Part shown: one piece after another, positions 23,730 through 29,346 of the stretch
How the letters are laid out: each line of letters begins with the position of its first letter
Numbering within the stretch: position 1 is the first letter of the stretch
NCBI RefSeq assembly: GCF_026319325.1
Contig: NZ_JAPDMU010000006.1
Coordinates: 28,723 to 92,722 of the forward strand
Reading direction: 5' to 3'
Length of the DNA stretch: 64,000 bases
Origin: Methylophaga sp. OBS3
GTDB taxonomy: Bacteria; Pseudomonadota; Gammaproteobacteria; Nitrosococcales; Methylophagaceae
Translations under genes and position numbers: made by a program
Notes under the pieces: generated by a model
What the model was told of the DNA's origin: nothing
Seen by the model: the letters and a program-made list of their open reading frames with translations, nothing else
Database searches by the model: none

Positions 23730-24347
23730 TTAAATTAACCCCATTAAACTTAAAAGCTTATCGTTAAACGGATACATTCGTTTAATACGACGCTCAAAGT
23801 CTTTCCATTTGCGTTGAATTTTGTGCCTACCTAAATAAGGCACATAGGTCATGATTGGTATCCAATCAGAGTTACCGATATTATCGACAATCACACAGCG
23901 CCACCTGTCTTCATTAACTTGCTGAAAAACAATATTTTTCGGCTTTAAAGACATAGTGATAATGTTAAACCGAAGTAGATAATTTTTGAGTTCATTAAAC
24001 TCAAAAATCAACTCATTGAGGTGAGCTTCCGTTAATTTTGCATCCCCAAGATAATACTCCAATGTTTTAGAGACATGACCGCTAGTATCACGAATCAATT
24101 CAAACATTGCTGCAGGGCCAAGGTTTGTCTCTACGTTACCGTAAAATTTGGGCAAACCTTCCCAAGAGATTTTTCTTTTTTGTAATAACGCGTAATAACC
24201 TTGTTCACGTGCTTCTTCCTGAGAGCCACGATTCACCCTGTTACGATCAACCCTAACTTTTATACATCTATCTGGAAAATCTGGATGTAAATAAACATCA
24301 CGATGTAAACCCTGGCCGATCAGTAGGCCAACATTAAGCTCGATCAA
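23730..24347 (-). CDS. YrbL-like kinase-fold protein
   Basis: 205 residues of the YrbL family (in E. coli a PhoP-network protein of unknown biochemical role). Family markers are the opening IGQGLHRDVYLHPDFPDRCIKV, the GLPKFYGNVETNLGPAAMFELIRD block, the catalytic-loop equivalent ITMSLKPKNIV (no Asp before KPxN, as in other YrbL proteins) and VIVDNIGNSDWIP. It belongs to the protein-kinase-like fold near LPS kinases. It overlaps galE by four bases (ATGA) and lies in the waaP-to-CgeB run. I infer a role in core phosphorylation or its control, with low confidence. Confidence 0.85.
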   Translation of the reverse strand: MIELNVGLLIGQGLHRDVYLHPDFPDRCIKVRVDRNRVNRGSQEEAREQGYYALLQKRKISWEGLPKFYGNVETNLGPAAMFELIRDTSGHVSKTLEYYLGDAKLTEAHLNELIFEFNELKNYLLRFNIITMSLKPKNIVFQQVNEDRWRCVIVDNIGNSDWIPIMTYVPYLGRHKIQRKWKDFERRIKRMYPFNDKLLSLMGLI

Positions 24348-25369
24348 TCACCGTATCCTTCTGGATTTTGTTGTTGCCATCGCCATGCATCTATCAGCAT
24401 GTCTTCCAATGTTTTTTCTGTTTTCCAACCTAGTAAGGCACTCGCCAATGAAGCATTCGCGTAATAAATAGCAACATCGCCAGCACGACGGTCAACTAAT
24501 TCATATGGTATGGAAATACCGGTTACAAGCTCGAAAGTCTTAACAATTTCTAGAACACTATAACCATGGCCAGCACCAAGATTGATTGGTGTGCACATGC
24601 CTGCTGATTGTTTTTCCAAGAATTGTAACGCTTTAACATGACCTCGCGCCAAATCAATAACGTGGATATAGTCCCGGACACCGGTACCATCTACCGTCGG
24701 ATAATCACTACCAAAAACCGACAACTTCTCAAGTTTCCCAATAGCAACTTGCGTCACGTAAGGTAATAAGTTGTTGGGGATTTGGGCCGGATCTTCGCCA
24801 ATCAAGCCACTTGGATGCGCGCCGGCCGGGTTGAAATACCTTAGTAGCGCCACCTTGAATAGTTCTGGTCTTGACTGCACAACATCCGCCAACATCTGCT
24901 CAATAAACAGCTTACTTCGACCATAGGGATTTGTCGCAAACAATGGAAAAGACTCATCCATTGGCACCGTTTCAGGGTCGCCATAAACCGTTGCGGAAGA
25001 ACTAAAGACAAAGTTGCCTACATTGGCTTGCTGCATAACCTGTAGCAATACCAATGTCGAATCCAAGTTATTTTGGTAATAGCGAATAGGCTCGGCACAA
25101 GACTCACCAACAGCTTTCAAACCAGCAAGGTGAATAACGGCATCGATAGAATGGGCCTTAAATACCTCAGATAAGGCTTCTGCCTCTCTGACGTCTTGAT
25201 GATAAAAGTGAACTTTTTTTGCTGTAATTCTTTCAATGCGTTCAATGACGGCGAAACGACTGTTAGACAAGTTATCAACAACGACCACATCATAACCAGC
25301 ATCAAGCAACTCGACGCAAATGTGACTACCTATGTAGCCAGCACCACCGGTGACAAGAACAGTTTTAAT
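24344..25369 (-). CDS. galE: UDP-glucose 4-epimerase GalE with AUU start codon
   Basis: NAD-dependent short-chain epimerase interconverting UDP-glucose and UDP-galactose, supplying galactose for LPS. The NAD motif TGGAGYIGSHICVELL, catalytic SSSATVYG with YGRSK, and the late DYIHVIDLARGH are all present. The conserved N-terminus KTVLVTGGAGYIGSH lies upstream of every in-frame ATG, GTG or TTG. The only sensible first codon is ATT at 25369-25367, giving the family's normal start and 341 residues, with AAAAAGGA eight bases before it. The next start-like codon, TTG at 25309, would delete the NAD-binding loop. The start overlaps the waaG stop by five bases (ATTAA). Confidence 0.93.
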   Translation of the reverse strand: MKTVLVTGGAGYIGSHICVELLDAGYDVVVVDNLSNSRFAVIERIERITAKKVHFYHQDVREAEALSEVFKAHSIDAVIHLAGLKAVGESCAEPIRYYQNNLDSTLVLLQVMQQANVGNFVFSSSATVYGDPETVPMDESFPLFATNPYGRSKLFIEQMLADVVQSRPELFKVALLRYFNPAGAHPSGLIGEDPAQIPNNLLPYVTQVAIGKLEKLSVFGSDYPTVDGTGVRDYIHVIDLARGHVKALQFLEKQSAGMCTPINLGAGHGYSVLEIVKTFELVTGISIPYELVDRRAGDVAIYYANASLASALLGWKTEKTLEDMLIDAWRWQQQNPEGYGD

Positions 25370-26507
25370 GGCTTCTATCCTTTTTACTTTTTGCTAAGTC
25401 TTCAATCAATTTCGCAGCCTTCTGCGGCATGCTATAGAGGTCTTCATTTTTAGCATAATGAATTGCATTATCAGACCAGCGCTTTAGCTTGTCTGAATCT
25501 AACATCTCAACTAACAACTTGGTAAAAGAGTCCGTGTTTTCGGGAGACTCAATTAAGTGGCCAGCCTGAGACTGCTCAACATGATTTGCATAACCACAAG
25601 CACTACTAACCAACTGTGGTAATCCGGCAACCATCGCTTCAAGGATCACGGTTCCAGTATTTTCAGAGCGTGCTGGATGCATAAATAAATCGGCCGCTTG
25701 TAACCACTGGGGAACATCACTTCGCCCCCCCATAAAGTTTACATTTGCACTGATATTTAATTGCCGGGCCAAATATTCAAACGGCTTTTGATTATCTTCA
25801 CCAACAACAAAAATATGGGTTCTATTACGAAGCGCTTCGGGTAAAGATGCAATTCCTTTAATAGCAAAATCGACACCTTTACGTTTGAAACCAGATCCAA
25901 TCATAAGCAATAAAAAATCGTCACTCGTCAGTCCTAGAGTTTCTCGAAGTGTTTGACGTTGTTGTTGCCAATCAGCTGGTCGGGTTCTCTCCGGATCGAT
26001 ACCTGGTGGTAAATCAACAAGTCGACTATCAGGTGTCTTGTATATTTCTTGGAACAACCGACGTTGAACCGAAGAAATCATCATTGATACCGTTTTGGTA
26101 TCACGACCAAATACAGCTCGCTCCCATTCAGAATAAAATTTAACACGTCCAAATAATCTTGAAACAGGATAGTGCCACTCTTGTCGAGCTCGAGCTAAAT
26201 AACATGGATCAGCCGCATAGTAGAGATCCAAGCCGGGCATCTTATTAAATCCGATAACAAGATCGTAATGACCCGCTGATAATTTTGGTTGAACTTGATG
26301 ATAAAAATCACGCATTCTCGCGTGGTTACTATACCCTGAGACCTCTATATTTATACGGTTAAACCCCGGAATATCTTCACCGTGCCACTCGATACAGTAG
26401 ACATCAATTTCATCACCAGCGTCTCTTCGCAATTCAAGAATTCGACGAAAATCTCTAGCCAATCCTCCAAACGGAAAATATTTATAGAGACAAACTGCTA
26501 ATTTCAT
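25365..26507 (-). CDS. waaG: LPS core glucosyltransferase I WaaG
   Basis: GT4 enzyme that adds the first hexose (glucose in enterics) of the outer core to heptose II. Matches WaaG closely along its length: CLYKYFPFGGLARDFRRI at the start, VIGFNKMPGLDLYYAADPCY, VDLPPGIDPER, GSGFKRKGVDFAIKGIASLPEALRN and VILEAMVAGLPQLVSSACGY with the EX7E Glu residues. In Pseudomonas the WaaG homolog transfers GalNAc, so the sugar here is uncertain. 380 residues. It overlaps the upstream kinase gene by 26 bases and galE by five. Confidence 0.94.
   Translation of the reverse strand: MKLAVCLYKYFPFGGLARDFRRILELRRDAGDEIDVYCIEWHGEDIPGFNRINIEVSGYSNHARMRDFYHQVQPKLSAGHYDLVIGFNKMPGLDLYYAADPCYLARARQEWHYPVSRLFGRVKFYSEWERAVFGRDTKTVSMMISSVQRRLFQEIYKTPDSRLVDLPPGIDPERTRPADWQQQRQTLRETLGLTSDDFLLLMIGSGFKRKGVDFAIKGIASLPEALRNRTHIFVVGEDNQKPFEYLARQLNISANVNFMGGRSDVPQWLQAADLFMHPARSENTGTVILEAMVAGLPQLVSSACGYANHVEQSQAGHLIESPENTDSFTKLLVEMLDSDKLKRWSDNAIHYAKNEDLYSMPQKAAKLIEDLAKSKKDRSH
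25378..25385 (-). promoter_or_regulatory. Ribosome-binding site that decides the ATT start of galE
   Basis: AAAAAGGA on the minus strand lies eight bases before the ATT at 25369, inside the last codons of waaG. No ATG, GTG or TTG stands at a useful distance in the galE frame, so this site supports initiation at ATT, possibly coupled to waaG termination. Confidence 0.65.
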
Positions 26508-27888: not shown

Positions 27889-28685
27889 TCAGCCAGTAAT
27901 GTTTCAGCGCGCTGCTGCACATGTTTCCAGAAATCTGATTGTGTTTGTAATAGTTCGCGTAATGGCAGCCCACTGTACTGTTTCATAAAACGCAGTAAAT
28001 CTCGTGAGGTCAGAGGCACTCTGCTTGCGGAAAAGAATAGACTACCCAAATCTTTGACAAGCCATCTTTCGGGTATTTTTTTTCGGATCTGAGCTCGGTG
28101 TAAATCGATTAGATAAATTGGCATATCTTCAGTGTAAGTATTATGCGAAGCAAAAGACTCATCCAAAAGAAAGTGACAAAGATAAAAGTCGCGATGATTG
28201 ATGCCATTGGTATGCATTACTCGGCTAATATGAGCAAGCTTACTAATGAGTGTTTGTTTTGTCTGAAAGGTCGGCGGCTGACTCTGCCATTGTTCGCCCA
28301 CCCACTCTAGACTCATTGTCTTTGTTAACTCATCAGTAATAACAAAGGATTGGCGTTTAGCGGGGTTCCAGCCTTTTTCACCATAAGCTGCAAGTGTCAT
28401 GGTATCTAGACCAAGCTTCTCTAGAAACTGTATCGCCTGCCACTCATTGCGCGCACTAAAGATAGGTAAACGAAAAGCGATGAGGTTTTTGAATACCTCT
28501 TGCCAACCAATACCTGCATGATATTTCAGAAAGTAAGAATGATTTTGAAAATCAAAGCGTAGTGTGCGACGCCCTTCTTTATCCCGAAAAACATCACCCG
28601 TTATGGATTTAACTTGAGAAAAAACTGACTTATTAGCCCAAGCCAGCTGAAACTCTTTGCGTAAAAATAGCTTGTCATTATTCAT
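27885..28685 (-). CDS. waaP: LPS core heptose I kinase WaaP
   Basis: ATP-dependent kinase phosphorylating heptose I of the LPS inner core, needed for outer-membrane integrity and essential in P. aeruginosa. Strong family matches are GDVFRDKEGRRTLRFDF, SYFLKYHAGIGWQEVFKNL with the ATP-site Lys, EWQAIQFLEKLGLDTM, the catalytic loop HTNGINHRDFYLCHFLL and YLIDLHRAQIRKKIPERW. 266 residues, normal length. First gene of the overlapping minus-strand run waaP-kinase-waaG-galE-yrbL-like-cgeB-like. It diverges from gmhA over about 100 bases. Confidence 0.95.
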   Translation of the reverse strand: MNNDKLFLRKEFQLAWANKSVFSQVKSITGDVFRDKEGRRTLRFDFQNHSYFLKYHAGIGWQEVFKNLIAFRLPIFSARNEWQAIQFLEKLGLDTMTLAAYGEKGWNPAKRQSFVITDELTKTMSLEWVGEQWQSQPPTFQTKQTLISKLAHISRVMHTNGINHRDFYLCHFLLDESFASHNTYTEDMPIYLIDLHRAQIRKKIPERWLVKDLGSLFFSASRVPLTSRDLLRFMKQYSGLPLRELLQTQSDFWKHVQQRAETLLAE

Positions 28686-28788
28686 TATGGCTTTTGGGCG
28701 TGTGATTTATGCGGTTGCGAATAACGTTTTGCTACACTATCCGCAAAGAAGACAAATATTAACACCTGACCCCATAAAGAGGTACACC

Positions 28789-29346
28789 GTGTCATTCCAC
28801 TCTACATTAAGTCGCCATCAACAAATGGTCGACAGTTTGTTTGCCATGACGCCACAACTTGAGGCGTTATCAAATCGTATTAACGAATGCGTGTTGGCCG
28901 GAAACAAAGTTTTGTTCTTTGGTAATGGTGGTAGCGCGGCAGATGCGCAACATATGGCTGCGGAGTTTATTGTTCGTTACAAAGATGACCGCCAACCTTT
29001 AGCTGCCATTGCATTAACGACTGATACCTCAATTCTGACAGCACATAGCAACGACTATAGTTTTGACTCTGTATTCGATAGACAAATATTGGCACTAGGA
29101 AAGCCTGGGGACATTGCGATTGGTTTATCCACATCCGGTAACAGCAAAAATGTCATTAATGGCGTTAAAGCAGCGCAATCATTAGGCATTTATAGTGTGG
29201 CATTTACTGGTGATAGTGGTGGCCAGTTACTGGAGATTGCTGATGAATGTGTGCGTATTCAAAGTACGGAAACAGCACGCGTTCAGGAAGGCCACATCAT
29301 CATTGGCCATTGGCTGTGTGAAGCGTTAGACGCGCAGTTAGCGTAA
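28789..29346 (+). CDS. gmhA: Sedoheptulose-7-phosphate isomerase GmhA
   Basis: Converts sedoheptulose 7-phosphate to D-glycero-D-manno-heptose 7-phosphate, the first step to ADP-heptose. SIS-domain motifs are FFGNGGSAADAQHMAAEF, LSTSGNSKNVING and the late VQEGHIIIGHWLCEAL. I chose GTG at 28789 (185-186 residues), with AAGAGG about six bases before it. A longer reading from 28657 would extend into waaP on the other strand and adds residues absent in the family. It is followed two bases later by the FAD oxidoreductase gene, so the three plus-strand genes here look like one operon. Confidence 0.92.
   Translation: MSFHSTLSRHQQMVDSLFAMTPQLEALSNRINECVLAGNKVLFFGNGGSAADAQHMAAEFIVRYKDDRQPLAAIALTTDTSILTAHSNDYSFDSVFDRQILALGKPGDIAIGLSTSGNSKNVINGVKAAQSLGIYSVAFTGDSGGQLLEIADECVRIQSTETARVQEGHIIIGHWLCEALDAQLA

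Follow-up and report, generated by a model that had tools for sequence, protein, structure and literature searches.

The galE gene of Methylophaga sp. OBS3, which encodes UDP-glucose 4-epimerase, very likely begins with an AUU codon, and comparison with related genes indicates that this start is real and conserved. The gene lies in the window, that is, the stretch of 64,000 nucleotides of contig NZ_JAPDMU010000006.1 that was analyzed. Judged by the ten species and two genera in which the same ATT is found, it is not the error of one assembly. The weak start probably holds the output of GalE low and makes it sensitive to IF3.

The galE frame and its neighbors

The galE gene occupies positions 24344 to 25369 of the window and consists of 341 codons, counted from the ATT, and the stop; like the features of its start region and the two adjacent genes, it is read from the minus strand. 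From the proposed start codon at 25367 to 25369 the gene reads ATT AAA ACT GTT CTT GTC ACC GGT GGT. Upstream, the sequence closes the frame with an in-frame TAG at 25394 to 25396, and the codons leading from it to the ATT are TAG CAA AAA GTA AAA AGG ATA GAA GCC. The preliminary description of this DNA had claimed that galE lacks an ordinary start at the expected place, and this proved correct: no ATG, GTG or TTG is present in the galE frame between the ATT and that TAG. The first canonical codon inside the gene is the TTG at 25309 (codon 21), which stands after GGAGYIGSH, so that a start there would cost the NAD-binding loop, as had been stated.

The protein read from the ATT scores 438.5 bits with TIGR01179 (cut-off 262.3) and covers positions 2 to 331 of the 332 in the profile. 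Thirty-one distinct PDB sequences (E<=1e-60), all named UDP-glucose or UDP-galactose 4-epimerase or GAL10, align with it from residue 1-4 on. When the protein is begun at the TTG, the Pfam Epimerase profile is matched only from position 19 and its first 18 positions are lost.

The Shine-Dalgarno site AAAAAGGA (25378 to 25385), predicted to form a duplex with the 16S tail, is separated from the ATT by the eight bases TAGAAGCC, the distance given in the preliminary description. The gene preceding galE encodes a glycosyltransferase (25365 to 26507, ATG start, PF00534 Glycos_transf_1). It ends with AGC CAT TAA, and base 25367 is common to this TAA (25365 to 25367) and the ATT, which bears out the overlap noted earlier. 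Its name, waaG, is the label used in that description; none of the NCBIfam models exceeds its cut-off with the waaG-like protein among the best 25 of 31 matches. The next gene in the run after galE is YrbL-like (23730 to 24347; PF10707, 137.7 bits). Its listed start is a TTG overlapping the galE stop as TTGA at 24344 to 24347, and at locus L238 the listed start of the YrbL-like gene is an ATG, again overlapping the galE stop. Elsewhere in the window, the listed start of a gmhA-like frame (28657 to 29346) is probably too early, because the phosphoheptose isomerase profile matches from residue 41.

The start region in the Methylophagaceae

A GalE search of 57 genomes of the family gave 24 matches at E<=1e-90 in 23 genomes. 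The comparison is based on 21 family genes; three more distant copies (L018, L042 and L043, 53-59% identical) were left out, and L021 of genome G022, in two pieces and with an ATG start, is also outside this set. At that locus (G022:C1:1132227-1133247) the galE match is split into two pieces that overlap, which looks like the effect of a frameshift. Codons are numbered from the first G of GGxGYIG.

In ten of the 21 genes codon -7 is ATT and codon -8 is not canonical. These are the window gene, the only one of the ten in genus g1, and the genes of nine species of genus g4 (G028, G034, G026, G074, G073, G061, G071, G077 and G076); their proteins are 62-67% identical to that of the window. The remaining 11 genes have a canonical codon at -8, ATG in ten and GTG in one (G005, where the GTG is followed by ATT). 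The AUU start proposed in the preliminary description is thus well supported by the comparison, in which nine other species have ATT at the identical codon. ATG at exactly this codon occurs in none of the 21 genes, and the ATG or GTG of relatives is placed one codon further upstream. Since 11 of the 21 genes use that upstream codon, the AUU is not indispensable. Five of the ten AUU genes (the window, G028, G073, G061 and G071) are devoid of canonical codons from the upstream stop to the motif, and the other five have such codons distantly upstream in frame, at -15 to -33. The gene of G034 has an additional ATG two codons downstream of the ATT.

The place where coding begins can be seen codon by codon in the ten AUU genes. 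Codons -16 to -8 vary regardless of the protein, except for AGG or GGG at -11 and AGA at -10, which constitute the Shine-Dalgarno block. Codon -7 is ATT in all 45 pairs of genes. It is followed by three codons, -6 to -4 (K-T-V/I), with both synonymous and non-synonymous changes, the latter in 9, 17 and 24 of the 45 pairs, and then by codons -3 to +14, over which the protein is constant save for A/S at +2 and the codon changes are synonymous (for example, in 36 of 45 pairs at V-2 and 37 of 45 at L13). The AUU therefore stands in frame at the edge of the protein-type conservation in all ten genes. Every codon listed from -7 to +19 (27 in all) occurs in more than one spelling, with the sole exception of ATT. 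Isoleucine elsewhere in such galE genes is spelled ATT in 110 of 212 cases (ten rows, with L043 included and L039 excluded), and a plain isoleucine would therefore be likely to vary in spelling. This argument is weakened because in seven of the ten genes the third base is dictated by the waaG TAA; the three AUU genes without the overlap still have ATT, and the alignment reads ATTAA in all ten.

Control loci were fetched from genomes (the best 80 of 591 matches of the contig search) and from viral contigs (80). The GalE motif was found in 72 and 79 of them, respectively, one of the 72 being a family member, L074 of Methylophaga sp. 41_12_T18. A canonical codon is absent from the range -30 to -4 in 5 of the 21 family genes versus none of the 72 genome and none of the 79 viral-contig loci. 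Over the tighter range of -12 to -4 the corresponding numbers are 9 of 21 versus 2 of 72 and 3 of 79. These five of 151 controls do contain a canonical codon, but at a greater distance of up to 30 codons upstream; long N-termini therefore do occur. The lack of a canonical galE start in the family is more than chance.

The database prediction for this contig, P0001, starts at the ATA at 25376 to 25378 and reads MEAIKTV. Among the best 120 of 7994 GalE database proteins the motif is present in 118, of which 11 begin inside LVTGG. The ten nearest proteins (77-93% identical to the window) include five that begin inside LVTGG and one that begins later still, which is expected if a gene caller meets no canonical start; the remaining four have a longer start and then V-I-N-T. 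P0002, the nearest (93%) among the matches listed, starts MVTGG. The starts of P0002 to P0011 were deduced from predicted proteins, which the end of a contig could likewise shorten. Database starts are gene calls and not DNA, and they serve therefore as supporting evidence only; they suggest that gene calls in these bacteria truncate GalE.

Initiation at AUU and its possible role

Attenuation combined with sensitivity to IF3 is the most likely role of the galE AUU, and is considered fairly probable. Ribosomes guided by Shine-Dalgarno pairing would place fMet-tRNA on the AUU, initiation would be slower than at AUG, and IF3 would reject part of the initiation complexes, as it does for infC. The E. 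coli infC gene starts with AUU and is autoregulated by IF3. At the infC start position ATC was found in all 31 loci read, which comprise those of 30 relatives (L044-L073, of 50 genomes with a match) and that of the organism itself (L248, G000:C3:854300-856300). In 12 of the 30 relatives, a stop lies two codons upstream, and the choice is narrowed to AAC and ATC. The organism's own genome and others contain an in-frame ATT three codons before the ATC, and AUC is therefore the likely, but not the only, choice there. Given the ATC of infC in the family, discrimination of the IF3 type is to be expected, and it should extend to the galE AUU.

A Shine-Dalgarno site is present at a working distance in all ten AUU genes, and the distance from the block to the ATT is constant within a base or so. 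Pairing was calculated with the 16S tail ACCUCCUUU, read in the relatives G034, G076 and G022. Tail patterns ending in CCTTA were absent from the organism's own genome and ten relatives; a shorter pattern matched in three of these 11 genomes, its own not among them, and showed ACCTCCTTT. The predicted duplex has an energy of -5.6 kcal/mol in the window and is stronger, at -7.4 to -9.0 kcal/mol, in the other nine AUU genes, versus -4.8 to -7.1 kcal/mol in the eleven ATG and GTG genes. The difference between AUU and ATG/GTG genes has a p of 0.0008 in a rank test that disregards kinship, and is not significant on the tree, where it amounts to three independent pairs. RNA structure at the galE start of the window is nothing unusual (z 0.68), and none is predicted from the alignment of the ten AUU genes.

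Several other explanations of the ATT have to be weighed. An error of assembly or sequencing, or an inactive galE truncated to the TTG at 25309, is extremely improbable: nine other genomes carry the same ATT, the first codons after it are conserved as protein, the score of the full frame is that of a GalE equivalog, and the protein from the TTG would be without its GGAGYIG loop. A start at the in-frame ATA, which would add three residues, is very improbable too. This codon was chosen in P0001, and the excerpts of PMC13009471 describe ATA as a weak start in ccpN; here, however, it overlaps the Shine-Dalgarno site, leaving zero spacing, and the other nine AUU genes read AGA or GAG at this place. 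The AUU might also be real and have no regulatory role, being a drifted or ancestral weak start that is tolerated since the cell requires little GalE; initiation would then proceed in the ordinary way through the Shine-Dalgarno site. The presence of canonical starts instead of AUU in 11 of the 21 family genes and the merely average Shine-Dalgarno site of the window agree with such tolerance. It is nevertheless unlikely, since ten divergent genes share the ATT although ATG is one base change away, and in nine of them it follows a strong Shine-Dalgarno site whose spacing is nearly fixed. AUU starts are, moreover, extremely rare, with one switch to AUU among 61,358 ancestral AUG starts given in the excerpts of Belinky et al. 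(PMC5622118).

The remaining alternative is that ribosomes finishing waaG re-initiate on the AUU, so that the amount of GalE follows that of WaaG. In seven of the ten AUU genes, those of the window and six relatives, the waaG TAA and the ATT overlap, as such coupling would have it. The waaG stop is 17 bases upstream of the ATT in G073 and 28 bases upstream in G071, and a gene other than waaG ends 118 bases upstream of it in G074 (neighboring genes were listed in three of 14 stretches), yet all three have kept the ATT. Because the overlap is absent in these three, it does not explain the AUU. All ten genes also have a Shine-Dalgarno site, as for independent entry, and re-initiation is reported in the excerpts of PMC2268962 to be lower when IF3 is raised. 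Coupling is on the whole rather unlikely, although it is compatible with attenuation by a weak start and both can hold. In the seven species, ribosomes ending waaG would stop atop the AUU and may add to the ribosome supply, as an accessory and not as the cause; coupling of galE to waaG, suggested in this form, is a possible extra to attenuation.

The history of the start was traced on a GalE tree of 28 rows, from which the start codons had been left out. The 21 family genes group in a single clade (100/97); within its genus, the window is the first to branch off (group 99/95; the rest without the window 89/85). AUU and canonical starts require four changes on this tree in all: with AUU in the family ancestor, three of them fall inside the family and one on the stem, and with a canonical codon in that ancestor, all four fall inside. 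A single old AUU that was replaced three times is thus as short a history as separate gains of AUU. The canonical codons are one codon upstream in all eleven genes, as if they had been gained beside an old start.

Relation to known weak starts and significance

To our knowledge, few AUU starts are known to be conserved. As judged from its sequence, galE likely joins the rare genes known to start with AUU, namely infC, pcnB, cvfC1 and pncA. The infC genes of E. coli and of the family, the latter with ATC, resemble galE in having a weak AUN start behind a Shine-Dalgarno site, at which rejection by IF3 is expected. They differ from it in that infC is autoregulatory, as is mentioned for E. coli in the excerpts of PMC13009471, whereas galE encodes a sugar-nucleotide enzyme within a lipopolysaccharide-type gene run.

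The same excerpts describe cvfC1 (AUU) and ccpN (AUA) of S. aureus, in which a weak codon is combined with a strong, extended Shine-Dalgarno site and the non-canonical starts give about 10% of the output of an AUG reporter in poor medium. The nine galE genes of genus g4 are similar in their conserved non-canonical start and strong Shine-Dalgarno site, and the site of the window is weaker. The two S. aureus genes differ in that they belong to Firmicutes, encode a 61-residue protein and a transcriptional repressor, and were tested at the bench. A trend toward strong Shine-Dalgarno sites with weak codons is reported for GUG and UUG in the excerpts of PMC5622118.

The pncA gene (BBE22) of Borrelia burgdorferi is, like galE, a gene for a metabolic enzyme, albeit a different one, with an AUU start. 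According to the excerpts of PMC13398362, databases truncate the N-terminus of its product, and the start is supported by genetics, biochemistry and structure, whereas that of galE is deduced from sequence. The apparent truncation of GalE in gene calls parallels that of Borrelia PncA. Streptomyces sigR has a GTC start repressed by IF3 (excerpts of PMC5472188) and is comparable to galE as a non-canonical start that keeps one product of an operon low; it differs in the codon, in being a sigma factor gene and in that the effect of IF3 was shown.

E. coli pcnB, a translationally limited gene, resembles galE in its AUU, according to the title of a reference in PMC13009471. It was considered as a second AUU gene in the genus of the window and rejected there, because ATG stands at the shared place in all 16 genes among the matches listed. 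Separately, six genomes of family f2 in the same order (G035-G040; loci L265-L267, L269, L273 and L277) have no in-frame ATG, GTG or TTG in pcnB before the conserved PRSEH-like start region, which suggests an AUU or AUA start. A literature search for galE with AUU and for Methylophaga with galE found no paper on this start codon among the matches listed.

The AUU galE genes of ten species, standing beside sister species whose ATG or GTG is displaced by one codon, provide a natural before-and-after series on the purpose of a weak start. A more far-reaching and tentative proposal, less likely than attenuation itself, is that AUU is ancestral in the Methylophagaceae as a selected throttle read by IF3, that infC (AUC) and galE (AUU) together make up a small regulon of IF3, and that several lineages escaped from it via an upstream ATG or GTG. 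If this were true, the regulon would make the UDP-galactose available to the cell surface depend on the state of the initiation machinery.
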